Assembly: GCF_016889805.1 (NCBI RefSeq)
Contig: NZ_CP069535.1
Span: 3,224,001-3,288,000 of the forward strand
DNA length: 64,000 bases
Reading direction: 5' to 3'
Source of the DNA: Rhodanobacter sp. FDAARGOS 1247
GTDB lineage: Bacteria > Pseudomonadota > Gammaproteobacteria > Xanthomonadales > Rhodanobacteraceae
This document shows, one piece after another, positions 6,069 to 39,353 of this stretch (position 1 is the stretch's first letter; each line of letters begins with the position of its first letter). The notes under the pieces were generated by a model. The model worked only from the letters and a program-made list of their open reading frames with translations. It was not told where the DNA came from and searched no databases. The position numbers and the translations under genes are program-made.

Positions 6069-6084
6069 GGAGGAAGCAGTCCTG
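6069..6084 (+). promoter_or_regulatory. Shine-Dalgarno deciding a CTG start
   Basis: GGAGGA at 6069-6074 precedes a CTG codon at 6082. The frame has no ATG/GTG/TTG between the upstream gene's stop and the conserved domain, so this is the likeliest initiation region. Confidence 0.45.
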
Positions 6085-8163
6085 ATTTCCCACCTGCGAT
6101 GGCGCCTGAAGCGCTTGGTCTATATCAGCCGCCGCATCGCCGCCAGCCTGGCGCTGCGCGGCGTGCGCGGTACGCTGGCGCGCGTCGCGCAGGAGTTCCA
6201 GGCGCGTCCCGCGTTCGACGAGGCGCTGGCGCTGTTGCCGCTGGACGAGCCGTTCGCACCCTTTGCGTTGCCCGTCAGCGGGCAGCCTCGTGTCTCGGTG
6301 ATCATCCCGATCCACGGCAAGCTTGCCTATACCCTCGCCTGCCTGCGTTCGCTGGCGCGACATGGAGCCCGGACGGCTTTCGAAGTGATCGTGGTGGATG
6401 ACGCGTCGCCGGACGACAGCGCCGCGACACTCGCCCGGATCGCCGGCCTGCATCTGGTGCGCAACGCGGACAACCTCGGCTTCGTCGGCAGCTGCAACGC
6501 CGGTGCGGCCGCCGCCCGCGGCGAGTTCCTGCTGTTCCTCAACAACGACACCCAGGTCACGCCGGGCTGGCTGGATGCGCTGCTGCAGTGCTTCGCCGAT
6601 CATCCCGACTGCGGCATCGCGGGCAGCAAGCTGGTGTATCCGGACGGCCGCCTGCAGGAAGCCGGCGCACTGGTGTTCGCCGACGGCAGTTGCTGGACCA
6701 CCGGTCGCTTCGAGCCGCGCCAGGCCGCGACGTTCCGCTGGCGTCGCGAAGTCGACTACGTCTCCGGCGCGGCCTTGCTGATCCGCCGCGAGGTCTTCCG
6801 GCAGGTTGGCGGTTTCGACCTGCGTTACGCCCCGGCCTACTACGAGGATGTCGACCTGGCCTTCGCCGTGCGCCGGCTCGGCCTGCACGTGTACTACGAG
6901 CCGGCCAGCACGGTGATCCATTGCGAAGGCATCAGCGCGGGTACCGATCTCGATCGCGGCATGAAACGCCACCAGCGCCTCAACCAGCTGACCTTCGTCG
7001 ACAAATGGGCCACCGAACTGGCAGCCCAGCCACCGGTTGGCACGGCGGTGGAACGGGCGATCCGCTGGCGCCAGCGCGGCCTCGTGCTGGTGGTGGATGC
7101 GATGACGCCGGAACCGGCGCGCGACTCGGGCTCGCTGCGGCTGTGCGCGATCCTGGGCCTGCTCGACGGACAAGGCTGGGGCACCGTCTTCCTGCCCGAC
7201 GACGGCCGCGCCAGTCCCGCGGAGATCGATGCGCTGGGCACGCTGGGCTGCGAGGTGCTGTGCCGGCCCGCAGTGGCCGACCTGCCGCATTGGCTGCGCC
7301 GGCACGGCCACGAGCTGCATGCGGTGATCCTGTGCCGCCACACGGTGGCAGGCCAGTACGCCGCCGCCGTCCGTCGCCACGCGCCGCAGGCCCGGCTGAT
7401 CTTCGACACCGTGGACCTGCACTTCCTGCGCGAGGGCCGCGCTGCCGAAGTGGGTGGCAGCGCAGCGATGGCCCGCCAGGCGGAAGCGGCACGCCGCAGC
7501 GAGCTGGCCCTGATCGAACAGTCCGACGTCAGCCTGGTGGTCAGTCCGCACGAACAGGACTTGCTGGCGCAGCTGCTGCCCCGGGCGCGGGTGGAGCTGC
7601 TGTCGAACATCCATACCGTGCAGGCTTGCCGGCGCGCTCACCACGAGCGGCGCGACCTGGTCTTCATCGGCGGCTACGGCCACCCGCCGAACAGCGACGC
7701 GCTGCGCTGGATCGCCACGGAAATCCTGCCGAAACTGCGCGAGTTCTCACCGGAGATTACCGTGCACGTGCTCGGCGACATGCCCGACACCGCGCGGCGC
7801 GAACTGGCCGTGCCCGGCATGGAACTGCACGGGCGCGTCGCCGAGCTGACGCCATGGCTGGATGCCTGCCTGGCGTCCCTCGCACCGCTGCGCTTCGGTG
7901 CCGGCGTGAAGGGGAAGATCAACATGGCGATGAGCCATGGCGTGCCGGTGATCGCCACGCCGGTGGCGGTCGAAGGCATGCAGCTTGTCGATGGTCGCGA
8001 CGTGCTGGTGGCCAGCGACGCCGCCGGTTTCGTCGACGCGGTCCTGCGGCTGCAACGCGACGAGGCGCTCTGGCGGCAACTGTCGGCCGGCGGCCAGGAC
8101 AACGTGCGCCAGCACTTCTCGCCCGAGGCCGCCGACGCCACCCTGCGCCGGGTGCTGGATTGA
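6082..8163 (+). CDS. Two-domain glycosyltransferase (GT2 + GT4-like)
   Basis: A protein of about 693 aa for lipopolysaccharide or exopolysaccharide assembly. The N-terminal GT2 domain (about 70-290) has VSVIIPIHGK, VVDDASPDD, NADNLGFVGSCN, the DXD-like LFLNNDTQVTPGW, and YYEDVDLAFA with the catalytic acidic pair. The C-terminal part (about 335-690) is GT4/GT1-like, with FIGGYGHPPNSDALRW and the nucleotide-sugar loop APLRFGAGVKGKI followed by ATPVAVEG. No ATG, GTG or TTG exists near the homology start. CTG 6082, 7-8 nt after GGAGGA, fits best. The longer frame from ATG 5854 would overlap the upstream gene by 150 bp. The two-domain layout resembles the C-terminal half of the 1276-aa protein at 20-24 kb. 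Confidence 0.82.
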   Translation: MISHLRWRLKRLVYISRRIAASLALRGVRGTLARVAQEFQARPAFDEALALLPLDEPFAPFALPVSGQPRVSVIIPIHGKLAYTLACLRSLARHGARTAFEVIVVDDASPDDSAATLARIAGLHLVRNADNLGFVGSCNAGAAAARGEFLLFLNNDTQVTPGWLDALLQCFADHPDCGIAGSKLVYPDGRLQEAGALVFADGSCWTTGRFEPRQAATFRWRREVDYVSGAALLIRREVFRQVGGFDLRYAPAYYEDVDLAFAVRRLGLHVYYEPASTVIHCEGISAGTDLDRGMKRHQRLNQLTFVDKWATELAAQPPVGTAVERAIRWRQRGLVLVVDAMTPEPARDSGSLRLCAILGLLDGQGWGTVFLPDDGRASPAEIDALGTLGCEVLCRPAVADLPHWLRRHGHELHAVILCRHTVAGQYAAAVRRHAPQARLIFDTVDLHFLREGRAAEVGGSAAMARQAEAARRSELALIEQSDVSLVVSPHEQDLLAQLLPRARVELLSNIHTVQACRRAHHERRDLVFIGGYGHPPNSDALRWIATEILPKLREFSPEITVHVLGDMPDTARRELAVPGMELHGRVAELTPWLDACLASLAPLRFGAGVKGKINMAMSHGVPVIATPVAVEGMQLVDGRDVLVASDAAGFVDAVLRLQRDEALWRQLSAGGQDNVRQHFSPEAADATLRRVLD

Positions 8164-14967: not shown

Positions 14968-16791
14968 TCAGTGATTCTGCCCGGCCTGGACGCCAAGAGT
15001 CCCCTGCACGGGCGACTCGCCGATGTTCTTTTCCAGCCCGCCCTTCAGATACAGACGCGCCAGCGAATAGATACCCTGCATGACCTCATCTTCATGCCTT
15101 GCCCCTGACTCCTCCTGCAGCGCGACTTCCGACTTGGCAATCAGCCGGTAGTAGGGCGTTTCCCTGATGCCTGCAGCGCGCAGGATCTCGCTGCCGATCA
15201 TCCAGGACTGGACGTGCCGATTGGCATGAGCGAGATCGCTCCCCACGACAAACCATGGCACGAACTGCGAGGGGCCGGTCTTGCCATCGTCGAACTCGGC
15301 CGCCTTGTACACATGCTGCAGCCCGGGCAGATGATCACCGTAGAACACCAGAACATAGGGACGCTTGCGCGCCGCGAGAAAATCCCACAGCCGCCCCAGC
15401 TGCGTGTCCGCATTCTCGATGTGGTAAAGGTAGTTGCCGTATTCCTGTGCTTCCTTGCCCGACAAGTTCGATGGAATCGGAATCGCGGCCCGCTGCGCCT
15501 GGTCCCTGGTCGGGACATGCAGATACGGTCCGTGCGCCTCGATGCTTATGGCGAAGATGAGCGTTGGCTTGCTGGCTTTCCCGAGCTGATCGATGATCTG
15601 GTCGGTCATGGCGGAATCGGCGTAATACCAGCCGTCGCGCTTGGCGTCTCGCGGAAAATCATCCGCTGTAATGAACTTGTCGAAGCCGATCGCCTTGAAG
15701 GCCTTGGCCCTGTTCCAGAAGTTTCCGTCGTTGCCGTGGATGGCGACGGCGGCGTAACCGTTGTTGCGGGCCACGTCGATGATGCTGGGGATCGCTTTCT
15801 GGGTGATCTGCAGATACGGAAATTCGATGGCCGGGTAGGTCTCCATGGGAATGCCCGTCAGCACCTCGAACTCGGTACGCAATGTACCGCCGCCGAAAGT
15901 CGGCGCTTCCATGCTCCCGCCGATGCCGCTGGCCAGTGCACGATGCAGGTTCGGCAGGATCGTGCTGGTGTCATCGACATCTTTCAGGATGCCCGGATCA
16001 AAAAAGGACTCACTCTGAACCACCACGATATCCGGTCGCTGTCCGACCGCCAGGTGTTCCGGCAACGCCGGACCGACGTCCAGCTTCAGGAATGCGTCGA
16101 CCGCCTGCTGATTTACCGGCACCTCGAGCGCACGTCGGCGCTCGGCACTGGTATACACAATCGAGCTGAACAAGCCCGAGTGAAGAATGCTCTGCATCGG
16201 GGACCACGCGATCACCCGCAGGTTGTCCGCGCCATATATGCGACCCACCCAACGCGAGCCGGAGCCGATCCCGACCATGCACGAGACCACGAGCACCGCG
16301 ACGATTGCCCGTGCGATGCTCCGACGCCGGAAGATGACCGGTTCCAGCCAGAACGAGAGTGCAAACAGGCCGATGATTGCAACCAGGCCTGCAACCACGT
16401 AGCGGAGGTTGACGTAATTGGCCAGAAGTTCGACGGTCGCGGCATGCAGGTTGCCAAGAAGATACACATCGCTGAACGCGACCGGCACATCCAGGTATCT
16501 CAATTTCATCATGTTGGCGGCATACACCACAGCCACCAGGGTCAGACTGATGATCAACGACAACAACGCCCGATTGCACAGCGTCAGTAGCAGCAGGAAG
16601 ACCAGGATTGCCGGCACGGAGTTGACCAGGAATCCGTAGCTGAAGAGGTACGCATCCAGTTCGACCCTGATCGACGCCCGATCCATCAGCCAGCTGAAAA
16701 CCGCGATCAGGGCAGACAGCGCGATCACGATGGCAACCCTGATTGCGCGCCCGCTGCCCTTTGACTCGCGTGATGAAATCGCTTTGCTCAC
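14968..16791 (-). CDS. LTA synthase-like membrane phosphotransferase (alkaline phosphatase superfamily)
   Basis: A protein of about 607 aa. Four to five transmembrane helices fill the first 200 residues, followed by a periplasmic sulfatase/LtaS fold. Catalytic features are visible: the Glu in VVQSESFFDP, the probable nucleophile Thr in GGGTLRTEFEVLTG, His in SIEAHGPY, and the metal ligands of VFYGDHLPG. LtaS/OpgB enzymes move phosphoglycerol or similar groups from lipids onto glycans. In this operon it may decorate O-antigen with phosphoglycerol or phosphoethanolamine (inference). GTG 16791 has an AAGAGG ribosome-binding site; an alternative GTG at 16839 has none. It is flanked by two small lipoprotein genes. 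Confidence 0.82.
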   Translation of the reverse strand: MSKAISSRESKGSGRAIRVAIVIALSALIAVFSWLMDRASIRVELDAYLFSYGFLVNSVPAILVFLLLLTLCNRALLSLIISLTLVAVVYAANMMKLRYLDVPVAFSDVYLLGNLHAATVELLANYVNLRYVVAGLVAIIGLFALSFWLEPVIFRRRSIARAIVAVLVVSCMVGIGSGSRWVGRIYGADNLRVIAWSPMQSILHSGLFSSIVYTSAERRRALEVPVNQQAVDAFLKLDVGPALPEHLAVGQRPDIVVVQSESFFDPGILKDVDDTSTILPNLHRALASGIGGSMEAPTFGGGTLRTEFEVLTGIPMETYPAIEFPYLQITQKAIPSIIDVARNNGYAAVAIHGNDGNFWNRAKAFKAIGFDKFITADDFPRDAKRDGWYYADSAMTDQIIDQLGKASKPTLIFAISIEAHGPYLHVPTRDQAQRAAIPIPSNLSGKEAQEYGNYLYHIENADTQLGRLWDFLAARKRPYVLVFYGDHLPGLQHVYKAAEFDDGKTGPSQFVPWFVVGSDLAHANRHVQSWMIGSEILRAAGIRETPYYRLIAKSEVALQEESGARHEDEVMQGIYSLARLYLKGGLEKNIGESPVQGTLGVQAGQNH

Positions 16792-16941
16792 CGCATATAG
16801 CCTCTTGAATGGAATTGCCCCCGCAGCGTGAATTTTCACGCTGCGCCGGCTCGTGCCACCAGACGACGGAACTGGAGGAGACCGCCCGGCGCCCCTGCCG
16901 CCCGGCTGGTCCGGGTCAGCCTCAACATGCCGGCAGCTACC

Positions 16942-17389: not shown

Positions 17390-17953
17390 TCAACAATTCG
17401 GGGATTCGCCACTTTCAAGCAGTGCGACAACCAGCTGCAGGTCTGCGGCACGCAACGTCATGCGCCCGCTGACCTCGTCAGGTTCACTGCGCATCAGGAC
17501 GCAATGCCGCACGCCCGCATTCTTTCCGGCCTGGATGTCGCTTGGCTTGTCTCCGACAAGCAGCGACCTTTCCAGGCTGATGTCGCATTCACGCTGTGCG
17601 GCGAGCAGCATGCCTGGCTCCGGCTTGCGACAGCTGCACTCGCGCGCATAGTTTTCCACCACGCCATCGCGATGATGGGGACAGTAGTAGATCGCATCCA
17701 GCCGCGCCCCATGTTGCACGAACACCCCGGACATCCATTCCATGTAGCGATGAAAATCATCCTCGGAATAGTAGCCACGGGCTATGCCCGCCTGGTTGGT
17801 GACCACCACCACCAGATGGCTCGTCCGGTTTGCCAGTCGCACGAGATCGAAGATGCCGTCGATGAACTCCGTTCGTTCCGGCGTGCAGACATAACCGTGA
17901 TCGACATTGATAACGCCGTCCCGGTCGAGAAAGAGGGCCGGCCGTTGACCCAT
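17390..17953 (-). CDS. gmhB: D-glycero-D-manno-heptose 1,7-bisphosphate 7-phosphatase
   Basis: A 187-aa HAD phosphatase, the usual GmhB length, removing the C7 phosphate of heptose bisphosphate. The catalytic motif FLDRDGVINVDHGYV (DxD) is at the N-terminus. VVTNQAGIARGYY follows, then the zinc-binding loop with CPHH and ECSCRKPEPGM, and the LLVGDKPSDIQAG acidic motif. The longer open frame upstream runs into hddC. ATG 17953 overlaps the hddC stop by one base (TGATG), indicating coupled translation. Last of the four heptose genes. Confidence 0.92.
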   Translation of the reverse strand: MGQRPALFLDRDGVINVDHGYVCTPERTEFIDGIFDLVRLANRTSHLVVVVTNQAGIARGYYSEDDFHRYMEWMSGVFVQHGARLDAIYYCPHHRDGVVENYARECSCRKPEPGMLLAAQRECDISLERSLLVGDKPSDIQAGKNAGVRHCVLMRSEPDEVSGRMTLRAADLQLVVALLESGESPNC

Positions 17954-18666
17954 CAACTTGAACCCGCGCTTTCGCCGAGCCCGAGCTGGGCGCGCGAATA
18001 ATCCTCCGGCACGCCGATATCGATGAACCCGGTCGTTCGCGTAAAGGCCCGTACCTTCCCTCCCCGCACTGCCGGAGACAGAACGGCATCCTCGAAGGAA
18101 AAATGGTCCGACTCGGGGAATGCTCCCGCAAGCTCCCGGGCCACCCGGTATACCCCCGCATTGATGTAACCAGGGCCACTCAGCCCCTTTTCGGAAAAGC
18201 CGATGACCCAATCATTCCGGACCTCGACGGCCCCGTAACGGGCCACGTCCGGCACTCGGGCAAGCGCCATGCCGAGCTTCGCGCCGGAGGAGGCAACCTG
18301 TTCCTCGAAGGCTGCATGATCGAGTTCGAGATAAGTGTCGCCATTCAGGACGAAGAAGGCGTCGCCACCGATCTGCGGCAACGCCTGTGCGATCGCCCCA
18401 CCGGTGCCCAGCGGACGGGTCTCCCGCGAATAGACCAGTGACATGTCGCCCCAGCGATCGCCCAGCGCCTGGTGGACTTTCTCTCCCATGTAACCCGTTG
18501 CCAGCACTACCCGCCTGAACCCCTGCGCCGCCAACCGCTCGAGCAGGAAGGCGAGGAACGGCCGGCCCTGGACGGGAGCGAGCGGCTTGGGTACATCGCT
18601 GACAACGCTTTGCAGCCGGGTACCAAATCCACCGGCGAGGATCACGGCCTCGTCAATGAGCGCCAT
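17953..18666 (-). CDS. hddC: D-glycero-alpha-D-manno-heptose 1-phosphate guanylyltransferase
   Basis: A 237-aa nucleotidyltransferase with the signature AVILAGGFGTRLQSVVSDVP, Lys in KPLAPVQGRPFL, GTGGAIAQAL and the metal-binding FVLNGDTYLE. HddC makes GDP-D-glycero-alpha-D-manno-heptose from heptose 1-phosphate. The similar RmlA- or ADP-heptose-type alternatives are disfavoured by the adjacent hddA, gmhA and gmhB. It overlaps the 3' end of gmhA by 14 bp and gmhB by 1 bp. Confidence 0.88.
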   Translation of the reverse strand: MALIDEAVILAGGFGTRLQSVVSDVPKPLAPVQGRPFLAFLLERLAAQGFRRVVLATGYMGEKVHQALGDRWGDMSLVYSRETRPLGTGGAIAQALPQIGGDAFFVLNGDTYLELDHAAFEEQVASSGAKLGMALARVPDVARYGAVEVRNDWVIGFSEKGLSGPGYINAGVYRVARELAGAFPESDHFSFEDAVLSPAVRGGKVRAFTRTTGFIDIGVPEDYSRAQLGLGESAGSS

Positions 18667-19252
18667 GGCCGAAGATCTCCTGCTCGATCAGGCCGCACAG
18701 GAGATGCCCGATGAACTCGTGTCCTTCCTGGACTTTCGGTGTCTCCGATGACGGCATGCGAAAGCACAGGTCGCAGAGTTCGGCCATCTTCCCGCCCTCG
18801 TGGCCGGTAAATCCGATCACGACAATCCCGATGGCGCGGGCCGCTTCAATCGCCCGCAGGATGTTTTTCGAATTTCCGGAGGTGGAAATGACAAAAATCA
18901 CGTCCCCCTTTCGACCGAGCGCCTCCACTTGTCTGGCAAAAACGTAGTCATAGCCGTAGTCATTGCCGATAGCCGTGAGGATGCTGGTGTCCGTCGTCAA
19001 GGCGATTGCCGGAAGTCCCGGACGATCAAAATGGAATCGGCTGACCAGCTCGCCTGCCCAATGTTGCGCATCTGCGGCGCTGCCGCCGTTACCTGCAAAC
19101 ATCAACTTGTTGCCGCGCCGAAACGCTTCGACCGACAGGGTCACCGCGCGCGATATCAGCTCCCGCAATGCCGCGTCCGCCGACATGGCAGTCAGCAACT
19201 TGATCGACTTGTCGAATTCGGCCTCGATGTAGCCGTTCAAATGATCCGCCAT
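18653..19252 (-). CDS. gmhA: Sedoheptulose 7-phosphate isomerase
   Basis: A 199-aa SIS-domain enzyme converting sedoheptulose 7-phosphate to D-glycero-D-manno-heptose 7-phosphate, the first step of heptose synthesis. Substrate-binding motifs are complete: FAGNGGSAADAQHWAGE, the phosphate loop STSGNSKNI, and the catalytic/metal QEGHEFIGH near residue 185. ATG 19252 lies inside the end of hddA (16-bp overlap) with GGGAG upstream. A dedicated operon copy of gmhA suggests supply for O-antigen rather than core only. Confidence 0.92.
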   Translation of the reverse strand: MADHLNGYIEAEFDKSIKLLTAMSADAALRELISRAVTLSVEAFRRGNKLMFAGNGGSAADAQHWAGELVSRFHFDRPGLPAIALTTDTSILTAIGNDYGYDYVFARQVEALGRKGDVIFVISTSGNSKNILRAIEAARAIGIVVIGFTGHEGGKMAELCDLCFRMPSSETPKVQEGHEFIGHLLCGLIEQEIFGHGAH

Positions 19253-20265
19253 GAGGTGGCTCCCTGGTGCGTGAAATGAAAATCCATGATGCTCCCTCCT
19301 TCCTCCAGCAATGCGCGTGTCAGGCCGATGCGCTGCTCGGGGCTGCACAGGAACATCATGAAGCCGCCGCCACCAGCGCCAGACACCTTGGCGGCGCGCG
19401 CACCGCTGGCGAAAGCGACCTTCTCGACTCGTTCGATCAACGGGTTGCTGATGCTGGTAGCCGTTCTCTTCTTGGCCACCCAGCCCGCCTGCAACGTGGA
19501 CTCCAGCCGGCGCAGGTCGCCCTTGAGAATGCATTCCTTCATCTGGATGGCCTCATCCTTCAGCTGGTGCATGGCGTCAATGGATGCCTGGTCCCGGTTG
19601 CCCACGTTGCGCGACTGCTGGGCAATGATGTCCGCGGAAGCACGCGAAACGCCGGTGAAGTACAACACCAGCGAACTTTCGAGCTCTGCCCAGACCCAAT
19701 CCTTGATGCGCAACGGATTCACGATGACCCGATCGTCCGCATAGAACTCCATGAAGTTGAAGCCTCCGAAGGTGGCTGCATACTGATCCTGCTTGCCCCC
19801 CGCCAGCTCCAGATCCTTGCGCTCGATGTCGTAGGCCAGCTGGGCCACTTCATATTCGCCAAGAGGCAGGGAGAAATACTCGACGAAGGCCTGCAGCAGC
19901 GCCACTACCATGGTCGAGGATGACCCCAAGCCGGATCCCGGAGGCGCATCAGAGAACGTCTTGACCGTCAGCGAAGGCTGTTCGCCCTGGAGAAAGTCGC
20001 GCGACACCCGCGCATACACGCCCTTGAGCAATTGCAGGGGGCCGCCGCACGGAATGTCACCGTCACAGGAATGCATCTCCTCGTGGCGTACGTCGAGTGC
20101 ATGAAAGCAGGTTTCCTTCCCGTTGCCTGCCGTCACGATTGCATACGCATAACGGTCGATGGTGACGTTCATCACGCGACCGCCGTAGACATCGCAATAT
20201 GGCGACACATCGGTGCCGCCGCCAGCAAGCCCCAACCGGAGCGGTGCACGCGCACGCACGATCAT
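19237..20265 (-). CDS. hddA: D-glycero-alpha-D-manno-heptose 7-phosphate kinase (GHMP kinase)
   Basis: A 342-aa GHMP kinase phosphorylating C1 of heptose 7-phosphate with the alpha anomer specificity needed for GDP-heptose. Motifs: [19 protein letters not shown] at the start, the ATP loop [39 protein letters not shown], and the C-terminal [17 protein letters not shown] 20265 overlaps the stop of the large upstream transferase gene (ATGA), so the two are translationally coupled. HddA rather than bifunctional HldE implies GDP-heptose, not ADP-heptose. Confidence 0.9.
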
Positions 20266-23200
20266 GGGGAAGGCTCCCCGGCCGTCATCGTCCACGGAAG
20301 TTCGCGGGCGAATTCGCTCCACTGCGCGTCTTCCGTGAAGCTGGCACGCACGAACGCCTGACCTGCAGCAGAGCATCGGCGCCACGCAGCATCATCTTCA
20401 AGCAGGCGCAGGACATGCCCCGCAAACTCCTCGGCCGTGTCGGCGGCCGCAAGAAAATCGGCCGTCTGTTCGAGCCCCTGAACGCCGGTCGATGTAGTCA
20501 CGCAGGGCACGCCGAAACGCATGGCCTCGATCACCTTTCCCTTCATGCCGCCGCCAAACCGCAGTGGCGCAACAACGACTCGAGCATTCGCGTAGCGTGC
20601 CGAAAGCTCCTCGTCGGTGACAAAACCCGTCACCGTGACAGGCCCGCCATGCAGTGCCTTGACCGCATCGGACGGGTTGGAGCCGACCAGATCAAGGTGG
20701 ATCTGCGGATGGCGCTTCTGGATGAGGGGAAGTACCTCATGGGCGAACCATTCCGCGGCATCCACATTCGGCGGGTGCGCAAATCCCGCAACGAAGACCA
20801 GATCGTGTCGATCGGTCAGGTTCGCATCCGGTTGCTCGGGGAAGTCATCGAAGGCATACGCGGCGATCGTATGGGCGCGGACCGTCGACGACTGCCCGTC
20901 CAGCCACTCGCGCACATGGCGAGTCTCGCTGGCAGACGGATAGTAAACAGCGTCCACCAGCTTCCAGATCCCGTGCTCCAGCTTTCTCACCCTGTCGCAC
21001 TCGGCCCGCAGCAGCTTGTCCGCAGGCTGCATTCGCAACTGATCCTCGATGCGCAGGTAATGTACGTCATGTCCGTAGTACAGCAGCGGAGCGCTACTGT
21101 GCTTGCGTATCGCCCCGACGAAGTCGACTGCGATATGCGGCCGGCTCAGCAGCACGACATCAATGTCCGAAGCATGTTGCTCCATCCATTGACTGAAGCC
21201 CTGATGATATTCGGCGCCGTAGACAACTTCGACGCCAAGCTGCTGCAGCAACGGCGCGTAGGCCGGATCGTTGTACAGGTTCTCCGGCCAGAATTTTACC
21301 GAAAAGCCCTTCCGTACAAACATGCGGATGAACTGCCACATCGTGCGCGAGCCGGCATCCCTGTCCGGCTGGGGAATGTAGTGGTCCACGACGAGAATCG
21401 TCCGGGTCGCCCGCGTGCGACCGCGCGCCCTGAAAACGTTCTCGCCGTTGGGAAAATGCTCGCGCTTGAGCACCTCGTGCCAACGCTCGTAGAAGCGCCG
21501 CTGGTTCTCGACCTGGTAGGCCTTGATCCCGGAATTGACGTCGGTACCGTGCGACACGCCTTCGTGATGCACGACCACCGAGCGCGGCTGGTAATAGAGT
21601 TTCAGCCCGGCCTCGCGGACCTTGAAGGCGAGATCCGAATCCTCGCAGTACGCAGGCACGTAACGTTCGTCGAAGCGACCCAGTCGAGCGAACAATTCGG
21701 CGGGAATCAACAACGACGCGCCGGAGCAGTAATCCGTTTCGCGCACATAGTTGTAGATACTGCGCGAGGGATCATCCAGCCGGCCGTAGTTCCAGGCGCT
21801 GGCATCGGCCCAGATGATCCCTCCGGCTTCCTGCAGTCGACCGTCGGGATAGACCAGCTTGGAACCCACCATGCCGCAATCCGGGAATCGCCGGAACAGT
21901 TCGAGCATGCTGTCCAGCCAGCCGTCCGTAACCTCGGTGTCGTTATTGAGAAAATAGATGTAGCTGCCGCGCGCCAGCCCGGACGCGCGATTGCATGACC
22001 TCAGGAAGCCAAGGTTCTCCGAATTCACTTCGTAGCGAAGTCCGGGCACCGCCGCCAGCGAGTTCATCTCGGCATCGCCCGAAGCGTCCTCGGCAACGAG
22101 GATTTCATACGGCACTTGCGGCGGATGCGCGGCAATCGAGCGCAGGCATGATGCCGTGATGGCCAGATTGCCGTAAGTCGGAATGATGATCGTGACTTCC
22201 GGCTCGTTATAGAATGGAAACGCCAGTTCGGACACTTGCCCGGATGACTGCGGTGCGTCGATGCGGGGCGCGGAATGAAGATCCGGGAGCGTCTCTGCCG
22301 AGGCTTTCGCGCTGCGAAGGCCGAGCATGCGCCGCTCCGCGAAGCTGCCCCGCATGCCATGCCAATCCCGACGAAACAGCATGCCGAGGGCACGCAAGGG
22401 CCGGGTCAGGGTCCACGAGCGTGACCGCCGCAATTGTTCGTTCTGATCGCCCAGTTTCGCCAACTCCCCGGTCAACAGCTCCGCACGGGCTCTCAGGCGA
22501 CCCTGTTCATCCTGCAGTGAAGCGACCAGCGTATTTCGATCGGCCAGTTCGGTGTCCAACGAACGGGCCCACTGAGCGACTTTCTCGTGTTCGATGCACA
22601 GTGCCCCATAACGGGCATGAAGCTCGCCCAGTTCGCGGTTGATTCGTGCGAAAGCCTCGATCAGCTTTTCACCCACCACTGCGTCACGCGAGTATTCGCC
22701 GGTGAAGTCCCGGATATGCTGCCCGACCGCAGTCAATTGCTGTTCGACAGCGCGCCCCCACTCTTCCATTTCCAGTTTTTCCTTCTGCAGCACCGCATGT
22801 TCTGCATGCAACCGCGTTACTTCAACGACCGTCTTTTCATGTTCCGCAGCAAGCGTTGCGCCGTGTGCACGCTCCCGCGCCAATTCCGCATTCAGCGATG
22901 TTGCCCACGCGGACGCTTTTTCATGACCCGCCTGGGTATCTCCGTACGATTCACGCAGGGCATTCAGTTCCGTCTCCAGCGCCTTGGCCCAGTTCACGAT
23001 CTTTTCGTGATCCGCCTGGGTCCGCCCATACGTTTCGCGCAGGGCGCTCAATTCCGTGTCCAGCTCCTTGGCCCAGCCCACGATCTTTTCATGATCCGCC
23101 TGGGTCCGCCCATAAGTCTCACGCAGGGCGCTCAGCTCCGTGTCCAGCGACTTGGCCCAGCCGACAGTCTTTTCATGCTCCGCCTGGGTCCGCGCGTGAG

Positions 23201-24092
23201 TCTCACGCAGCGCATTGAGCTCCGCGTCCAGCGACTTGGCCCAGGTCACCGTGGACTCATGCTCCGCCACCATGCGTCCGTGCGTCGCCCGCGCCTCGCT
23301 CAACTCGCTGTCGAGAGCAGTAGCCCACGCAGCGACCTTTCTATGATGCGTATAAAGGTCCTCCGCCTCGGAAAACAGGATGGAGGGACGCAACTCCCGC
23401 AGAATACGCTCATCCAGCGAGCCGGCAACCGCAATGAAATAGACCGGGTCGGCCAGCGAGGTGGCGCGTTCGACGATTTCCGAGCCCGTATCCGTCAATG
23501 CATCGACCTCCTGCGCGCTGGCTTCAGCGCCCTGCAGCGTGAAGATCGATGACCCAACCGCGAGCCTCTGGCCAAAATAACGGATGTCACCAAACTGTTC
23601 CCGCAGAACCGCATCGAACTCTGCAAAGTCCAGTTCCTTGACATGGAATTCGTTGTGGTGCCCCGCAAGCTCCGTGTACACCGTCCGGTTTGGCGACGAC
23701 ATGACAAGCAAACCGTCCGGGCGCAATACCCGACGGATCTCGCTGAGCATTTCCCGATGGCGGTCGTGATGCTCGATGGTTTCGAACGAAACCAGCACGT
23801 CCACGCTGTTGTCCGCCATCGGTATCTGCGCGGCGTTTCCCTGCACGAAACGCAGGCCGGGAATGTCCGGATACGTCGCACGGGCATGGCTCACCGCGTT
23901 GTCGTCGATATCCACTCCCACCACGGAGTTGGCGCGGCGCGCCAGCATGGCGCTGCCGTAGCCCTCGCCACAGGCGATATCGAGGACGTCCTTGCCTTCG
24001 ACCAGACGTGCGCACCAGGCATAACGATGCAGATGTTCGTGTCGGATCTCTCCCGCTTCGGTAGGTACGTAGCGCTCGCCGGTAAACTCCAT
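20262..24092 (-). CDS. Trifunctional methyltransferase / coiled-coil / GT2-GT4 protein (WsaE/WbdD-like architecture)
   Basis: A 1276-aa multidomain protein. Residues 1-200 are a SAM methyltransferase ([36 protein letters not shown]). Residues about 245-555 are a long coiled coil made of 28-residue repeats in strict register. Residues about 632-860 are a GT2 domain ([45 protein letters not shown]). Residues about 895-1276 are GT4-like ([47 protein letters not shown]). Known parallels: WsaE joins a chain-end methyltransferase to two rhamnosyltransferases, and WbdD uses a coiled coil as a length ruler. It probably elongates and caps the O-chain exported by the adjacent Wzm/Wzt. The ribosome-binding site AGGAGT overlaps the wzt stop. 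Confidence 0.85.
22764..23351 (-). repeat. Seven in-phase 84-bp (28-codon) coding tandem repeats
   Basis: Inside the coiled coil, units begin at residues 248, 276, 304, 332, 360, 388 and 416, always 28 apart. The consensus start is A-E/D-H-E-K-x-V-x-W-A-K, then L-D-T-E-L-x-A-L-R-E and T-Y-G-R-T-Q. The central four units (22932-23267) are nearly identical at DNA level. Another clear unit at residue 500 is exactly three periods further on, so the register extends through degenerate units. Twenty-eight residues equal four heptads. Confidence 0.9.
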
Positions 24093-24096
24093 CGAC

Positions 24097-25506
24097 CTAG
24101 ACTCCTACCTGCTCGATTCCGATGGCATGCATCGGGATGCCAACCAGGCCATGCCGCATGGTGCTGTCACTGGCCTTGAACGTGAGAGCGTCATGGATCC
24201 AGTGATGCTGGGTATGGTTCTCCTGCGTTCCGTTGGCCAGCGCCACATCCACCGAATAATCGCCACTGGGCAGTATCGGCATGCGGAAGCGGAAATGTGC
24301 GCGCAGGCGCGTTCCGCCCCTCGCATCGACGGATCGCCCTCGATAGCTGAGGTATGTGTTGTCACCGAACAGTCGCTGCCCCAGGCGGTCCTTGACGTAG
24401 AACCCGAAGATCGGCGCATCCAGCGATTCGGAGACTTCGGCCTCGATCACCAGATCTGCCACTTCGCCACCTGCCGTCAGCCGCCGCGTCTGGCCATTGC
24501 CGTCCAGCAACTGCACGTCAACGATCCGCGCGGCTCCCGTGCCGAATTCATTGTCGATTCGTGCCGGATCGAATTCGAATATTTCGACCAGGTTGCGAGT
24601 CGCCTCCCCGTTCAGGATTGCCTTGCGCGGATCAACCACATCGGCGGGCACCGTCGTGTGGTCCGCACGATGACCGTCACCCGCCGCGCCCGCTCCCGGA
24701 ATGGACGTCCGAACGGTCACCGACTCGCCCAGTGAAGCGCGATCAGCCGCGTGCTGCTCGGCCAGGTACCTCTCGACGACATCGCGGGCCGAACCGTCCA
24801 TCACCATTTGTCCGGAGTCCAGCCAGACGGCCCGGCTGCAGAGGCTGGTCACCGCACCAGTGTCATGACTGACGAACAGCAACGTGCCCCGCTTCTGGAA
24901 TTCGCGCAGGTAACGCATGCACTTCTGCGTGAAACGCACGTCACCCACGCTCAGCGCCTCGTCGATCACCAGGGTGTCCGCATCGACGTGGGCCGCGATC
25001 GCAAACGCCAGCCGCACGTACATGCCGCTTGAGTACGTCTTGACCGGCTGGTTGATGAATTCCCCGATATCGGCAAATTCCGTGATCGACCGGTACCGCT
25101 TGCGCAATTCGCCTTCCGGAATGCCATACAGCAATCCGCTCAGGTAGACATTTTCTTCACCGGTGAACTCCGGATTGAACCCGGCACCCAACTCAAGCAG
25201 CGCCGCGATCCGTCCGTGCACCGCCACACTGCCTTCCGTGGGGTGGAGTGTTCCGCAGACCATCTGCAGCAGGGTGGATTTGCCCGAACCGTTGCGCCCG
25301 ATGATTCCGACGGTTTCGCCTCGGCGCACGTCGAACGACACACCACGAAGCGCCCAGAACTCGTTGAAATAGGCAACGTCGCCCTTCCCCATCGCCCGCC
25401 GGAAACGGGGCAGGATCATCTGCCTGAGCCGGTCGGATGGTTGCGCATAAATCTCGTAGCGCTTGCCCAGCCCGGCTATGCGAATGCTGAAATCGTCAGA
25501 GGACAT
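24097..25506 (-). CDS. wzt: O-antigen ABC transporter ATP-binding protein with C-terminal carbohydrate-binding domain (first copy)
   Basis: A 469-aa protein. The ATPase domain has Walker [12 protein letters not shown], the signature [11 protein letters not shown], Walker [12 protein letters not shown] and the H-loop FVSHD. After about residue 250 there is a beta-sandwich extension of about 200 residues ([28 protein letters not shown]), typical of Wzt proteins that bind the modified non-reducing end of O-antigen before export. ATG 25506 overlaps the end of wzm by 11 bp. The next gene encodes the methyltransferase that could make the cap. Confidence 0.93.
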
Positions 25507-26320
25507 CGGCAAACCCTTTCCTGCTCCGCTCGAACCACGCAAAGGAAAACCACGCGAACAGGCACGCAGATACGCTGTAGATGCCGAGATGAAGCCACGA
25601 CGGCGGCTTTCCCCAGACCAGAACGTTCTGGGAGGCTTCCACGATGACGGTGAGCGGATTCAGGTACATCCAGTCGCGGTATGGTTCAGGAATGAATTCC
25701 TTGGGATACAGGATCGGGGCAAGGAACATCAGGGCCGTGGTGATGATGCCGGTGGCCTGCTTGAGGTCGCGAAGAAACACGCCCAGAGATGCCAGCAACC
25801 AGATGGTTCCGGCGACGAAGGGCAGAAATGACGCAATGACGATCGGGAAAAGCACGATCGTCCATGGCAGTGAGCCCTTGGCAAACAGGGAGATGATCAG
25901 CAGGACCAGGGTGGAAACCAGCAGGTGGAATAGCGCGGAGCCCAGCGTGCTCCACGACAATATTTCCAGCGGAAACACCACCTTCTTGACGAAATTCGTG
26001 TTCTCCACGATCAGCGTGGGTGCCCGATTGGCGCATTCCGTGAACATCGAATTGATGTTCAGTCCCGCGAACAGGATCACCGCGAACTCGAAGTGACCTG
26101 TTACCTGGTCGTTCCAGCGCGACTTGAAGATGATCCCGAACACGAACGTGTAGATCATCAGCATGAGCAGGGGGTTGAAGAACGACCAGAGCAGTCCGAC
26201 AAACGACCCGCGATAACGACCTACCACATCGCGTCGAGCCATCTGCATGACCAGCGCGAAATGTCGGGACAATGCCCGATATGGAATGAGCGGGTCGATG
26301 AGACGATAGGCTGAAATCAT
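25496..26320 (-). CDS. wzm: O-antigen ABC transporter permease (first copy)
   Basis: A 274-aa ABC-2 type permease with six predicted membrane helices. Characteristic motifs: ARRDVVGRYRGSFVGLLWSF at the cytoplasmic elbow, ENTNFVKKVVFPLEIL, and LNPLTVIVEASQNVL. It exports lipid-linked polysaccharide together with Wzt. It is the first gene of the O-antigen operon that runs from 26.3 to 12.3 kb. A 118-bp gap separates it from the metB 3' end; no convincing promoter boxes were found there. Confidence 0.92.
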   Translation of the reverse strand: MISAYRLIDPLIPYRALSRHFALVMQMARRDVVGRYRGSFVGLLWSFFNPLLMLMIYTFVFGIIFKSRWNDQVTGHFEFAVILFAGLNINSMFTECANRAPTLIVENTNFVKKVVFPLEILSWSTLGSALFHLLVSTLVLLIISLFAKGSLPWTIVLFPIVIASFLPFVAGTIWLLASLGVFLRDLKQATGIITTALMFLAPILYPKEFIPEPYRDWMYLNPLTVIVEASQNVLVWGKPPSWLHLGIYSVSACLFAWFSFAWFERSRKGFADVL

Positions 26321-33983: not shown

Positions 33984-36377
33984 TCAGTGCACCGAAGTAC
34001 CGGCGTGCGCCCGGGGGTATGCGACCTCCTCCGGAAGCGGCGAACCGGGTTCCACCTGGCGCCAGTCACGCGGCGGGAAGGCCAGCGTGAACGGTTCGCC
34101 GCGCAGGGTCAGGTTGGGGTTGTACGCCGGGTCCCGTTCAAGCTCGACACCCCAGCGCTGGCGCATGAAACCCACCTCGCGCTCGAAGCGTGCCTGCTTC
34201 TGCGGCGTGTCTTCGTGCCCCCGCGAGGCGGACTCGTGATGGTACAGCTCCGCGTACGGCGTCCACACGTTGCTGAAACCCGCCCGACGCAGGCGCAGAC
34301 AGAAATCCACGTCGTTGAAGGCCACTTGCAGCGTGGCGTCCAGGCCACCCACCTGCTGGTAGACCTCGCGTCGCACCATCAGACAGGCAGCGGTCACGGC
34401 GCTCATCGCCTGGGCCAGTCGTGCGCGCGCCATCTGTCCCGAGTGCCCGCGCGGCATGCCGCAGTACGGATGCGCCGCGACCCCATGCACCCCCGTCACG
34501 ACCCCTGCATGCTGGATCGTGTCGTTCGGGTAATACAGCATCGCGCCAACCGCGCCCACGTGAGGGCGCATGGCATGGCTGGCCAGTTCCTCCAGCCAGT
34601 CCGGGGTGATCACCTCGATGTCGTTGTTGAGCAGGCACACCAGCGGAGAAGCGCATTCACGCACGGCCTCGTTGTTGATGACCGAATAGTTGAACGGCCG
34701 GTCGTGCGCACGCACGCGTACATTCGGCAGCGCGGCCAGCTGGGCAAAGTAGGCGATCGACGCCGGCTCGACCGACTGGTTGTCGACCACCACGATTTCG
34801 TAGTCCGGATAGGTCGTGTGCCGGAGAATCGATTCCACGCACTGTCGCAGCAGGTCGATCCGGTCCCGCGTCGGCACGATGATGCTGATCCGCGGTGCCG
34901 GCTCGGGCAACGGATGGCGAACCCGGAAAGCTCCATGAATGCCTTCGATCTCGTGCACCTCGGCAGCCTGCCCCTGCCGCGCGAAATGTTCCCGCACCGC
35001 GCGCAGGCCTGCCGTGTGCGCATATCCCTTCTGCTCCACGCCTTGCGCCGTGGAGCCCTCGATGGCGCGCCAGTGATACAGCACCATCGGTATGTGCCCG
35101 ATCTGGTCGGGGCGCAGCTGCTCGCTGCAACGTAGCGCCAGGTCCCAGTCCTGGCTGCCTTCCAGGCCTTCGCGGAACCCGCCCAAGGCGGTCAGCAGCT
35201 CGCGCGAATAGACGCCCAGATGGCTGACGCAGTTATGCCCGCACAGCAGGTCGGGGTTCCAGTCCGGCTTGAAATACGGATCGTAGCGCCTGCCCTCGGC
35301 GTCGATCTTGTCTTCGTCGGAGTAGGCCATCTGCCACTGCGGATGCTCGCGCAGCGCCTCGCTGACCGTGGCGATCGCCTGCGGGTGCAGTTCGTCGTCG
35401 TGATCGAGCAGGATGACATGGTCGCCGGTAGCCAGCGCCAGCGCGCTGTTCGAGGCCGCCGAGATATGCCCGTTGCGCTCGCGCCAGTGGATCCGGATGC
35501 GCGGGTCGCGCGCGGCGTACTCCTCCAGCACGCTGCGAACCTGCGGTTCGCCGGAGGCATCGTCGGCCACGCACAGCTCCCAGTCGGGGCTGGTCTGCGC
35601 CAGCACGCTGTCGAGGCAACGGCGCAACCAGACTTCCGCCGTGTTGTAGGTCGGCAGCAGGATGGAAATCGGCTGACCGCCGGCCCGCGAAGCAGGCGCC
35701 GGCTGCCGGTCGTAGAGTCGAAGCCAGCGCTCGTAGGTCGGTGCCTTGCCGCCGCGCCGGGTATAGCGGCCATGCAGCCAGCTCGCGAAGGCGCGACGAC
35801 CACCGCGCTGGCGCAACTCGGCCCAGGCTTCGCGCCGGAGAGCACCGACCTGCCCGCCCTGCGCTTCGTGTGCTTCCGACACCGAACGCCACATGTGCCA
35901 GCTGGCCGCGATGCGGCCCAGTCGCACCAGGCTCATGTTCCGCGCGCGCAGCCTGCATGGCTGGCCGGCCGGATCCAGCCGCAGGCGATGGATGTCGTGC
36001 GTCAGCAACACCACGCCGCTGTGCCGCCTCCTGCCGGGGTCGAAGAAGCCCAGGCGCAGCGACCAGTCCTCATGCATGCCCCATCCATAGTCGAAGTACA
36101 ACGTCGGCTCCAGCCGGTCGCCATCCAGATCTTCCAGCTCGATGGACAGCAGGTACCAGCCCGCCCGGACCGGGAAGCGCTGACTCACGCACTCGAACTG
36201 GGGGTCGTTGCCATCGGATTGCCAGCCGTCCGGCACTCCCTCGACCGGCCGCAACTGATGCAGCGGACGCAGCGAGATGGCGGGCCCGTGCAGATGCCGC
36301 AATGCTCGGCGCAGGCGCCGCAACACCCTGCGCAGCAAGCCGCCACGTTCGATCGGGGGTTCGCCGCCGGGGATCAT
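33984..36377 (-). CDS. Double GT2 glycosyltransferase
   Basis: A 797-aa protein with an N-terminal domain of about 230 residues that I do not recognise, followed by two GT2 domains. The first (about 236-440) has ISILLPTYNTAEVW, VADDASGE, HISAASNSALALATGD, LLDHDDELHP and YSDEDKID. The second (about 500-720) has ISIIVPTRDRIDLL, VVVDNQSVEP, NYSVINNEAV, LLNNDIEVITPDW and FNDVDFCLRL. Two catalytic sites in one chain suggest that it adds two different linkages of a repeat unit. The ATGA overlap with the upstream methyltransferase gene shows tight coupling in the wzm2 operon. Confidence 0.88.
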   Translation of the reverse strand: MIPGGEPPIERGGLLRRVLRRLRRALRHLHGPAISLRPLHQLRPVEGVPDGWQSDGNDPQFECVSQRFPVRAGWYLLSIELEDLDGDRLEPTLYFDYGWGMHEDWSLRLGFFDPGRRRHSGVVLLTHDIHRLRLDPAGQPCRLRARNMSLVRLGRIAASWHMWRSVSEAHEAQGGQVGALRREAWAELRQRGGRRAFASWLHGRYTRRGGKAPTYERWLRLYDRQPAPASRAGGQPISILLPTYNTAEVWLRRCLDSVLAQTSPDWELCVADDASGEPQVRSVLEEYAARDPRIRIHWRERNGHISAASNSALALATGDHVILLDHDDELHPQAIATVSEALREHPQWQMAYSDEDKIDAEGRRYDPYFKPDWNPDLLCGHNCVSHLGVYSRELLTALGGFREGLEGSQDWDLALRCSEQLRPDQIGHIPMVLYHWRAIEGSTAQGVEQKGYAHTAGLRAVREHFARQGQAAEVHEIEGIHGAFRVRHPLPEPAPRISIIVPTRDRIDLLRQCVESILRHTTYPDYEIVVVDNQSVEPASIAYFAQLAALPNVRVRAHDRPFNYSVINNEAVRECASPLVCLLNNDIEVITPDWLEELASHAMRPHVGAVGAMLYYPNDTIQHAGVVTGVHGVAAHPYCGMPRGHSGQMARARLAQAMSAVTAACLMVRREVYQQVGGLDATLQVAFNDVDFCLRLRRAGFSNVWTPYAELYHHESASRGHEDTPQKQARFEREVGFMRQRWGVELERDPAYNPNLTLRGEPFTLAFPPRDWRQVEPGSPLPEEVAYPRAHAGTSVH

Positions 36378-37993: not shown

Positions 37994-39353
37994 CAGTCAA
38001 CCGTTCAACACGAATGTCCAGCATCGGTATGCCGATCAGTCCGGCCACCATGGAACCACCCTCGGCGGTAAAACGCAGCGCTTCGTGCAGCCAGTGCTGC
38101 ACGACGTGCTGCTCCTGCGTTCCCTCGGAAACACCTGCGGCCACAAAATATTCCCCGGGTATCAGCCGCGGCATCACGAACTGGAAGCTGGCGCAAAACC
38201 GCTGCCCCCCGCTCACCGCGAAGTCGCCCCCGTGGCTGATGGCCGTATTGTCGCCGAACATCAGCTGCCCCAGACGGTTCTTCACGTAGAACCCGGTGAT
38301 CGCATTGTCCATGGCTTCATCGGCGATCAGCTCGATCCGGAGCGTCACGCATTCTCCGGCCAGCACGAGGGCGATATCCCGTCCCTGCTCGTTGCAGATC
38401 GAGACATGCGCGATGCGGACCTTGCACTCGCCGAAGCCGTCCTCCTCCGGCTGGAAGGGGAATATCTTCATGTCGTTGCGCAACGTGGAGCGGTCGATCA
38501 GCTCCTGACGCGGATCGACCTGACGCCGGGTCGAAGGCTGGGGGCGTTCCTGCAACCTTTGCCCCTGCGCCCCGATCCCGTGTTGCCGTTCGATCAGCGA
38601 CGCCTCGATATAGGCTTCCATCACCTTGCGTGCCGTGCCGATCTGCTGCACCCGGCCGTGTTCGAGCCAGATCGCGCGGTCGCACAGGCTGGTCACCGCG
38701 CTGCCATCGTGGCTGACGAACAGCATGGTGCCCCGTTTGCGGAACTCGCGCAGGTAACGCATGCACTTCTGCATGAAGAACGCATCGCCCACGGCCAGCG
38801 CTTCGTCGATGATGAGGATGTCCGCGTCCACGTGCGTCACCACCGAGAACGCCAGCCGCATCACCATGCCCGTGGAGTAGCTGCGCACCGGCTGGTCGAC
38901 GAAGTCGCCGATCTCCGCATAGGCGAGGATGTCCTCGATGCGGGCATCGATCTCGTCGCGGCTCAGGCCCAGGATGGCGGCGTTCAGATAGACGTTCTGG
39001 CGACCGGTGAAATCGGGATTGAATCCGCTGCCCAGCTCCAGCAGCGCCGCCACCCGGCCATGGATGCCGGCGCGCCCCTCGGTCGGCTTGAGCGTACCGG
39101 CGATCAGCTGCAGCAAGGTGGATTTGCCGGCGCCGTTGCGACCGACGATGCCAAGGGTCTCTCCGCGATGAACCTCGAAGTCCACCTCGCGCAGGGCCCA
39201 GAACTCACGGTAGAAGCGTCGATTGCCACCCAGCAGGCTCTGCCACATCCGGTGCACCGGCTTGTCGTAGAGCTGGTAACACTTGCCCAGCCCACGCACC
39301 TCGATCGCCACGTCGACGGCGGTGCCCGGCACGGGGACGGTTTCAGAGGACAT
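37983..39353 (-). CDS. wzt: O-antigen ABC transporter ATP-binding protein with C-terminal carbohydrate-binding domain (second copy)
   Basis: A 456-aa paralogue of the Wzt at 24-25.5 kb. Walker A is GRNGAGKSTLL, signature YSTGMVMRLAF, Walker B LIIDEALAVGD. The C-terminal domain (about 270-456) shares the ITGFYVKNRLGQLMFGDNT block and the VQHWLHEALRF block with the first copy but differs around the likely ligand face. This predicts a different or variant glycan end as cargo. ATG 39353 overlaps wzm2 by 11 bp, and the overlap sequence is identical to that of the first pair. Confidence 0.93.
   Translation of the reverse strand: MSSETVPVPGTAVDVAIEVRGLGKCYQLYDKPVHRMWQSLLGGNRRFYREFWALREVDFEVHRGETLGIVGRNGAGKSTLLQLIAGTLKPTEGRAGIHGRVAALLELGSGFNPDFTGRQNVYLNAAILGLSRDEIDARIEDILAYAEIGDFVDQPVRSYSTGMVMRLAFSVVTHVDADILIIDEALAVGDAFFMQKCMRYLREFRKRGTMLFVSHDGSAVTSLCDRAIWLEHGRVQQIGTARKVMEAYIEASLIERQHGIGAQGQRLQERPQPSTRRQVDPRQELIDRSTLRNDMKIFPFQPEEDGFGECKVRIAHVSICNEQGRDIALVLAGECVTLRIELIADEAMDNAITGFYVKNRLGQLMFGDNTAISHGGDFAVSGGQRFCASFQFVMPRLIPGEYFVAAGVSEGTQEQHVVQHWLHEALRFTAEGGSMVAGLIGIPMLDIRVERLTDEA

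Follow-up and report, generated by a model that had tools for sequence, protein, structure and literature searches.

A candidate polymerase-ruler-terminator protein of Rhodanobacter and the stepped length of its helical rod among homologues

Very few systems, of which PMC11231755 names O9 and O12, have an established coiled-coil ruler that governs O-antigen length. In Escherichia coli O9a and O8, WbdD carries an N-terminal methyltransferase, alone in O8 and with a kinase in O9a, followed by a coiled coil of ~20 nm, and the polymerase WbdA is a separate protein (PMC3482155, PMC5082667); when this coil is extended by insertion or truncated, modal chain length goes up or down (PMC5082667, PMC3482155). 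In Klebsiella pneumoniae O7 and O12, one chain is already known to unite a terminator, a coil and a polymerase (PMC11231755). As described there, WbbB of O12 polymerises and terminates within one polypeptide that has a coiled-coil ruler, and O7 ORF6, encoded with wzm/wzt, terminates with (methyl)phosphate; the terms "repeat number" and "tandem" are absent from the main text of that paper. In Helicobacter pylori FutA/FutB, the repeat number in an O-antigen enzyme is said to set active-site distance, with 12 vs 4 heptads in related strains (PMC5358919, where a 2006 "enzymatic ruler" paper on this theme is referenced), and PMC9445017 provides a further precedent for the machine proposed below. 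Within the open-licence literature, no paper was found whose title concerned the number of repeats in coiled-coil rulers of O-antigen, or Rhodanobacter O-antigen or LPS.

In the 64,000-nucleotide stretch of Rhodanobacter sp. FDAARGOS 1247 DNA analysed here (the window), a 1276-aa protein, hereafter protein X, is encoded in an operon with the order wzm-wzt-[protein X]-hddA-gmhA-hddC-gmhB:

25496..26320, minus strand: wzm, ABC-2 permease (Pfam)
24097..25542, minus strand: wzt, ATPase with C-terminal Wzt_C (cap-reading) domain (Pfam)
20262..24092, minus strand: protein X, methyltransferase - rod - GT2 - GT4 (Pfam)
19237..20265, minus strand: hddA-like kinase (best NCBIfam hit, below its cut-off)
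18653..19240, minus strand: gmhA-like isomerase (below cut-offs)
17953..18666, minus strand: hddC-like nucleotidyltransferase (best NCBIfam hit, below its cut-off)
17390..18103, minus strand: gmhB-like phosphatase (above the TIGR00213 cut-off)

Among the profile-searched gene products of this minus-strand run, GT domains were found in protein X alone, and wzm, wzt, X, hddA and gmhA co-occurred in 11 of the 44 loci, out of 80, taken into the count. Judged from gene content, the operon product is an ABC-exported polysaccharide, which probably contains D,D-heptose (D-glycero-D-manno-heptose). The following parts were distinguished within protein X:

23388..24092, minus strand: class I SAM methyltransferase, residues 1-235 (Pfam Methyltransf_11 at 37-131), putative chain terminator
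22422..23375, minus strand: helical rod, residues 240-557 (anchor alignment and AlphaFold2)
22764..23351, minus strand: seven 28-residue repeat units in phase, residues 248-443 (in-phase unit comparison)
22932..23267, minus strand: core units 276, 304, 332 and 360 (71-87% DNA identity)
22599..22766, minus strand: non-repeat cassette within the rod, residues 443-498 (homologue comparison)
22512..22595, minus strand: in-phase unit at residue 500 (in-phase unit comparison)
22350..22412, minus strand: basic amphipathic stretch at the rod base, residues 561-581 (amphipathicity scan), possible membrane contact
21543..22193, minus strand: GT2 (GT-A) module, residues about 634-850 (Pfam and fold comparison)
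20316..21032, minus strand: GT4 (GT-B) module, residues about 1021-1259 (Pfam, NCBIfam and fold comparison)

Pfam and AlphaFold2 thus place the candidate terminating enzyme distally on an extended helical rod, with the putative polymerase GTs at the opposite end. The AlphaFold2 model of residues 1-591 (mean pLDDT 70.0), a monomer model that cannot show an oligomer, has helix at 246-326, 334-460 and 469-556 with breaks at pLDDT below 50, and the short orthologue P0017 was predicted as a single continuous helix at 242-386. The rod has the heptad 3-4 hydrophobic spacing; the WbdD coil is a parallel trimer. Eighteen-residue windows starting at 561-564 rank in the top 2% of protein X for amphipathicity, a helix is predicted at 558-573, and the stretch 561-581 may touch the membrane.

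Like O7 ORF6, protein X comprises in one chain an N-terminal methyltransferase, a central predicted coil and two C-terminal GT modules; unlike it, protein X lacks the kinase and CBM-like domain ahead of the coil, and O7 uses two GT2 modules plus a separate ribofuranosyltransferase (PMC11231755). O12 WbbB differs in its GT99, GT102 and GT103 families and in having no methyltransferase terminator (PMC11231755). The N-terminal methyltransferase is shared with WbdD, but in contrast to O9a WbdD no kinase was found among the Pfam hits between methyltransferase and rod, which starts straight after the former. With WbdD, WbbB and O7-type terminators protein X also shares a gene position beside wzm and wzt, with a Wzt bearing a C-terminal cap-binding domain. 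FutA/FutB, with 7-residue units, are fucosyltransferases decorating the chain, for which PMC5358919, in its parts on these enzymes, describes neither a terminator nor Wzt coupling. A sequence search of solved structures returned generic methyltransferases and GTs, with WbdD at E 0.006-0.008, and the best 50 Foldseek matches were likewise generic.

Within the rod, Tandem Repeats Finder located 3.9 copies of a repeat at 22918-23244 whose period is exactly 84 bp, with matches of 85% and indels of 0%. The repeats, previously annotated as exact, are exact in period, while the copies differ: the middle four units, described as nearly identical in DNA, share identities of 0.71-0.87 (0.81, 0.87 and 0.82 for adjacent pairs). 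The annotated unit starts (residues 248, 276, 304, 332, 360, 388 and 416, plus 500 in the same phase) were recovered, as was the equivalence of 22764-23351 with residues 248-443, and recognisable units make up 8 of the 11 in-phase 28-residue units of the rod. Elsewhere in the gene, 4700 pairs of 84-mers drawn at random in frame averaged 0.28 identity and never exceeded 0.45, far below the core units, which rules out that the repeats are noise. Units 248, 388, 416 and 500 showed 0.44-0.61 DNA identity to the core units and unit 472 only a weak 0.33-0.45, and segment 444-471 was unrelated (0.00-0.18 protein identity to the ten other units). The non-repeat cassette lies 116 residues ahead of the rod end in 14 of its 16 carriers.

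Units were also compared among orthologues, leaving out L044 and L047 (missed by the pattern) and L112 and L113 (without the methyltransferase). Window units 304, 332 and 360 were 0.82-0.87 identical to each other versus 0.71-0.76 at best to units of three orthologues, units 248 and 388-528 had a better match in an L114 unit than in any unit of their own array, and L114 displayed a two-unit expansion of its own. By unit identity, window residues 304-387 represent a lineage-specific expansion, and the arrays of the window protein and of its nearest named-genome orthologue expanded independently.

Rod length was measured between two anchors (315 residues in the window protein) in 131 homologues, after 24 of 155 proteins without the methyltransferase end or anchors had been left out; P0115 (no anchor) and P0002 (the window's own protein) were excluded from the measurement. 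Among the 120 matches listed in a third protein search, 110 were already in the set and 10 were new. Rods ranged from 87 to 539 residues, with 147 in R. soli and 343 in strain Soil772, and the best self-match offset was 28 or 56 in 81 of the 91 rods of at least 140 aa. Rod length differed in 23 of 35 tree-independent close pairs, 13 times by multiples of 7 (3.3 expected) and 10 times by non-multiples of 7. Ten of the 13 were exact multiples of 28, where a uniform null predicts 0.8 (p=2.5e-9). No multiple of 28 occurred in the linker, GT part or methyltransferase part, ruling out stepping as a general property of length change. Rod length thus varies across homologues, often in whole 28-residue steps, in line with the variation in unit number that had been proposed. 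In 9 of 15 hand-chosen pairs the rod alignment consisted of one single gap of 28, 56, 84, 112 or 224 residues, the other 6 aligning otherwise, and one pair 94.7% identical outside the rod differed by one 8-unit block. Among 15 pairs of unequal rod length at identities of 0.60-0.75, a multiple of 28 occurred once. The unpaired length spectrum, in which period 7 is the dominant signal, gave z 6.6 at period 28, below the z of 9.2 that the linker control attained at period 7, and was for this reason given no weight for period 28. Streptococcal M proteins likewise contain a coiled coil whose length varies by in-register repeat number, but they are surface proteins, neither enzymes nor rulers.

We consider it rather probable that protein X polymerises, measures and terminates within a single chain and that its ruler evolves by steps in heptad phase, often of 28 residues, with an effect on chain length taken from the WbdD analogy. 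The GT2 and GT4 modules, anchored at the membrane through the basic amphipathic stretch, would elongate a lipid-linked chain, with D-glycero-D-manno-heptose as a probable constituent; the methyltransferase at the rod's far end would cap this chain when growth had brought it within reach, and the methyl cap would be read by the Wzt C-terminal domain for export. The rod would gain or lose blocks that are, above chance, whole heptads and 28-residue (four-heptad) units, and since whole-heptad blocks keep both reading frame and coiled-coil register, related species would carry stepped rod lengths. The sequences themselves establish the architecture, operon, repeat phase, stepped length differences and independent array expansion. 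We infer that the rod forms an oligomeric coiled coil contacting the membrane and that protein X has polymerase and terminator activity; by analogy with WbdD, rod length would set chain length, and since related bacteria carry different numbers of blocks, block gain and loss may be how evolution adjusts chain length. Closely related enzymes, some of them from named isolates, have rods that differ in length by whole units and form a natural series that would allow "rod length gives chain length" to be calibrated and would show surface-polymer length evolving in discrete steps without breaking the enzyme.

A faster process, in which units are gained and lost inside a single strain so that chain length switches in the population, would be favoured by core units up to 87% alike in DNA and by P0022 and P0025, which differ by 13 heptads (91 residues) at 96.5% flank identity. 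However, rods were equal in 67 of the 68 pairs with flank identity of at least 95%; 66 of the 68 fall within one group of 12 near-identical Rhodanobacter soli-like sequences with a single rod length, the other two being P0022/P0025 and P0077/P0087 (equal). Adjacent units moreover differ at at least 13% of bases, a divergence that should slow slippage, and such a contingency locus appears very improbable. The variation between close strains sought by the first-pass annotation is lacking in this group and present at 90-95% flank identity, where rods differed in all 12 pairs not touching the group. The contrast between rods of 87 and 147 residues in P0102 and P0103 at 90.8% flank identity looks as though length hardly mattered and, together with the dominance of period 7 and the ten non-heptad differences, would also suit a plain oligomerisation spacer, whose register is selected while unit number drifts by repeat recombination and chain length is set elsewhere (enzyme ratios, Wzt). 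Occupancy of the polymerase site on WbdD indeed also affects chain length (PMC11231755). Nevertheless, protein X retains the terminator-rod-polymerase order of the proven rulers (PMC11231755) and chain length shifts when the coil of WbdD is engineered (PMC5082667), making a spacer unlikely, if still a serious contender to the ruler.

The putative terminator role was addressed by comparing Wzt across 30 loci (L040, L122 and L130, with no usable Wzt, and L133, with neither type, were left out; L038 and L124, both included, are apparently one gene). Within the same ATPase-identity band, 20 MTase/MTase pairs had Wzt_C identities of 0.48-0.57, as against 0.13-0.26 for 184 MTase/DUF4915-like pairs, 5 of the 189 cross-type pairs lying outside the reported bands. 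Relative to the window, L112 had a GT identity of 0.70 and a Wzt_C identity of 0.19, and L037 and L042 had GT identities of 0.27-0.28 and Wzt_C identities of 0.67 and 0.63. These values indicate that Wzt_C tracks the N-terminal module and not the glycosyltransferases, which supports a terminator role, with linkage as the alternative: wzt adjoins the 5' end of the protein X gene, the two could have been transferred together, and the methyltransferase would then decorate the chain without terminating it. ATPase domains also split by N-terminal type (184 of 189 MTase/other pairs in the 0.55-0.70 band), but Wzt_C separates without overlap at equal ATPase identity and O8 WbdD terminates by a methyl group alone (PMC3482155), so that decoration with linkage seems quite improbable. 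Returning to the terminator reading, we tentatively extend it to a stepped ruler of the Rhodanobacteraceae, a possibility we would not yet put at even chances, in which one polypeptide polymerises, measures and caps, the rod changes in heptad-phased steps, typically of four-heptad units on its membrane-distal side, and exchange of the cap-making head goes along with that of the cap-reading domain of Wzt; length and cap would be separate modules, and the polymer could stay the same. A simple GT4 motif pattern was present in 70 of the 131 homologues and GT2 patterns in 116 and 122, and hence the homologues need not all share the same polymerase.

The gene of X encodes a protein that is probably a single-chain polymerase-ruler-terminator, whose rod evolves in heptad-phased, often 28-residue, blocks.

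Gene and Pfam domains of X
20262-24092, minus strand: gene of X, 1276 aa
X residues 37-131: class I methyltransferase
X residues 634-754 (631-845 by PF13641): GT2
X residues 1096-1233: GT4

The architecture is of a known kind, given several precedents. Excerpts of PMC11231755 describe a Klebsiella O7 protein that unites a methyltransferase-kinase, a coiled coil and a pair of GT modules in a single polypeptide, and they treat the ruler role of the coil as established for O9 and O12. X resembles the O7 protein in joining a methyltransferase, a probable coiled-coil rod and two GT modules, the kinase being named for O7. In excerpts of PMC5082667, the WbdD coil measures ~20 nm (~1 nm per heptad), and insertions or truncations in it raise or lower modal length, while changes in heptad number are described for H. 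pylori FutB in part of PMC5358919.

A single 84-bp array was detected by TRF in the window at 22918-23244 (3.9 copies, 85% matches, 0% indels), and in-phase units of X start at residues 248, 276, 304, 332, 360, 388, 416 and 500, which bears out the coordinates, period and phase given in the first-pass annotation. Its description of the copies as exact is too strong, and the middle units are less than nearly identical, since DNA identity among the four core units (276, 304, 332 and 360) is 71-87% (null mean 28%, null maximum 45%). Neighbouring units differ at at least 13% of bases. The rod of X, from the methyltransferase-end anchor to the rod-end tryptophan, comprises 315 residues, or 45 heptads. 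The sole other TRF match in the window is a 21-bp tandem array (51882-51928, 2.3 copies).

Structure prediction of the repeat region, which the same annotation had proposed, gives helices between the methyltransferase and GT2: AlphaFold2 places them at 246-326, 334-460, 469-556 and then 558-573 in X residues 1-591 (mean pLDDT 70.0, pTM 0.43), and predicts a single helix at 242-386 in the 1112-aa orthologue of R. soli, P0017 (mean pLDDT 78.8). Across rods with lengths divisible by 7, unit positions 5, 9, 12, 16, 19 and 26 are hydrophobic (0.68-0.91), as are positions 6 and 8 (0.63 and 0.61), with a weaker hydrophobic layer at position 23 (0.51) and a polar layer at position 2 (0.18); judged from sequence, this is the 3-4 spacing characteristic of heptad coiled coils. 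Residues 561-581, directly after the rod, are among the most amphipathic stretches of X, and the C-terminal region of WbdD holds a membrane-associated amphipathic helix (PMC11231755, in part). Catalytic-motif patterns were found among 131 homologues in 130 (SAM motif), 116 and 122 (GT2) and 70 (GT4), the last count being low because of either a narrow pattern or real differences.

Searching with X residues 1-265 returned 2841 proteins at E <= 1e-30, of which the best 120 were used; the anchor distance was measurable in 120 of 121 proteins and, after later additions, in 131 of 155. Rods range over 87-539 residues in these 131 homologues, many of them from metagenome assemblies, where repeats may have collapsed (the window and loci L114 and L115 come from genome assemblies). 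At ~1 nm per heptad (PMC5082667, in part) this corresponds to ~12-77 nm overall, 45 nm in the window and 21 nm in R. soli. Ignoring kinship, 91/131 lengths are multiples of 7 and 52/131 are 7 mod 28. Of the 91 rods of at least 140 residues, 65 match themselves best at an offset of 28 and 16 at an offset of 56.

On a tree built from the flanking domains alone, 35 non-overlapping tip pairs at distance <=0.30 had equal rods in 12 cases and unequal rods in 23. Among the unequal pairs, 13 differences were multiples of 7 (3.3 expected) and 10 were multiples of 28 (0.8 expected, p = 2.5e-9 under a uniform null); the multiple-of-28 test gave p <= 1e-4 at each of the five distance cut-offs applied. In controls at distance <= 0.5, multiples of 7 and 28 accounted for 2/21 and 0/21 differences in the linker, 2/25 and 0/25 in the GT part, and 0/10 and 0/10 in the methyltransferase part. 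Against stepping, the change was not a multiple of 7 in 10/23 unequal pairs, and the signal weakens with distance, multiples of 28 being found in 1/15 at 0.60-0.75 identity. By analogy with WbdD, the rod would control chain length; the main rival, a rod acting as a neutral spacer, is considered rather unlikely. Among the papers listed by literature searches, none presented a natural stepped rod-length series from a 28-residue unit.

Change of unit number between close strains, on which the inference in the first-pass annotation depends, may occur. At 90-95% flank identity, rods were unequal in 12/12 pairs without a member of one 12-sequence group, and equal in 12/12 pairs touching that group, all with P0026. 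At >=95% they were equal in 67/68 pairs, yet 66 of the 68 belong to that group; of the two others, P0077/P0087 are equal and P0022/P0025 differ (112 vs 203). In 15 hand-chosen rod pairs, 13 alignments had a single gap, a multiple of 28 in 9 of them; for P0110 and P0114, identity beyond the rod is 94.7%.

Gaps (residues) in chosen rod alignments
P0110/P0114: single, 224
P0031/P0027: single, 84
P0035/P0019: single, 28
P0083/P0098: single, 28
P0014/P0003: single, 84
P0107/P0105: single, 56
P0076/P0069: single, 112
P0004/P0001: single, 28
P0003/P0001: single, 28
P0033/P0030: two, 56 and 112
P0063/P0065: two, 42 and 14
Remaining four pairs: single, 91, 60, 10 and 17

Compared unit by unit, the array shows more rapid turnover than the parts flanking it. 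In the window, units 304, 332 and 360 are 0.82-0.87 identical to one another vs 0.71-0.76 to any unit of three orthologues, whereas units 248, 388, 416, 444, 472, 500 and 528 match an L114 unit (0.69-0.82) more closely than any own unit, unit 276 being a near tie (0.81 own vs 0.79 L114). L114 units 304-416 show an alternating two-unit pattern (best own 0.77-0.81 vs best other 0.63-0.69). Thus, the window and L114 reached 11 and 12 units through separate expansions of unlike block sizes. A conserved non-repeat cassette (window 22599-22766), a possible hinge or docking site, is carried by 16 of the 131 rods. In 14 of them its start lies at precisely 116 residues from the rod end, while its distance to the methyltransferase is 87-423 residues, which places the variable part on the methyltransferase side in those carriers.

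The gene order is wzm, wzt, X, then hddA-, gmhA-, hddC- and gmhB-like genes, bordered by what we take to be metB and etfBA, named from their translations. For hddA, gmhA and hddC the names are best NCBIfam matches under curated cut-offs, whereas gmhB scores over the TIGR00213 cut-off. The first five genes occur jointly in 11/44 loci searched (L032, L033, L034, L035, L038, L039, L041, L044, L046, L047 and L071). Where hddA is present and the rod was measured (ten loci: L032-L035, L038-L041, L044 and L046), rods span 91-406 residues: the sugar-nucleotide genes persist as the rod changes in length. The named close relatives are Rhodanobacter; the methyltransferase form was found in 6/45 genomes of the genus (E <= 1e-60) and 20/233 of the family (E <= 1e-75).

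A DUF4915 module precedes the rod and GTs in L112, L113 and protein P0125. At L112:3838-7194 and L113:6044-9997 it stands in place of the methyltransferase before the rod of 28-residue units and the GTs, and it may be a chain-capping or cap-related module that is new to description. Wzt was compared between 21 methyltransferase-type loci and nine others, the latter being matches to the L112 N-terminus, with DUF4915 confirmed by Pfam in L112 and L113 only. At ATPase-domain identity 0.55-0.70, Wzt C-terminal identity was 0.48-0.57 when both loci were of methyltransferase type (20 pairs), 0.13-0.26 for mixed type (184 pairs) and 0.18-0.55 between other loci (27 pairs), which makes the second class heterogeneous. 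Relative to the window, L112 has GTs at 0.70 and Wzt_C at 0.19, while L037 and L042 have GTs at 0.27-0.28 and Wzt_C at 0.67 and 0.63. The Aquifex Wzt carbohydrate-binding domain recognises a methylated cap (PMC9445017, in part), and the Wzt_C pattern fits an N-terminal module that would make the cap. Co-transfer of wzt with the 5' end of the X gene is an alternative explanation, because the two adjoin and the pairs are non-independent.

Elsewhere in the window, a second ABC export set comprises a Wzm-like protein (39343-40200, by similarity) and a Wzt with Wzt_C (37983-39389). Next to it, 36374-37993 encodes a methyltransferase (PF13578) as a protein of its own, whose C-terminal tail is rich in glutamine; this genome may thereby also hold a WbdD-like terminator of the stand-alone type. 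A member of the sulfatase family that weakly matches lipoteichoic acid synthase is encoded at 14968-16839, downstream of the heptose genes, and phosphoglycerol decoration of the polymer is a possible role for it. On the strand opposite to X, 5854-8163 encodes a paralogous GT2-GT4 protein with 38% identity to X residues 577-1261.
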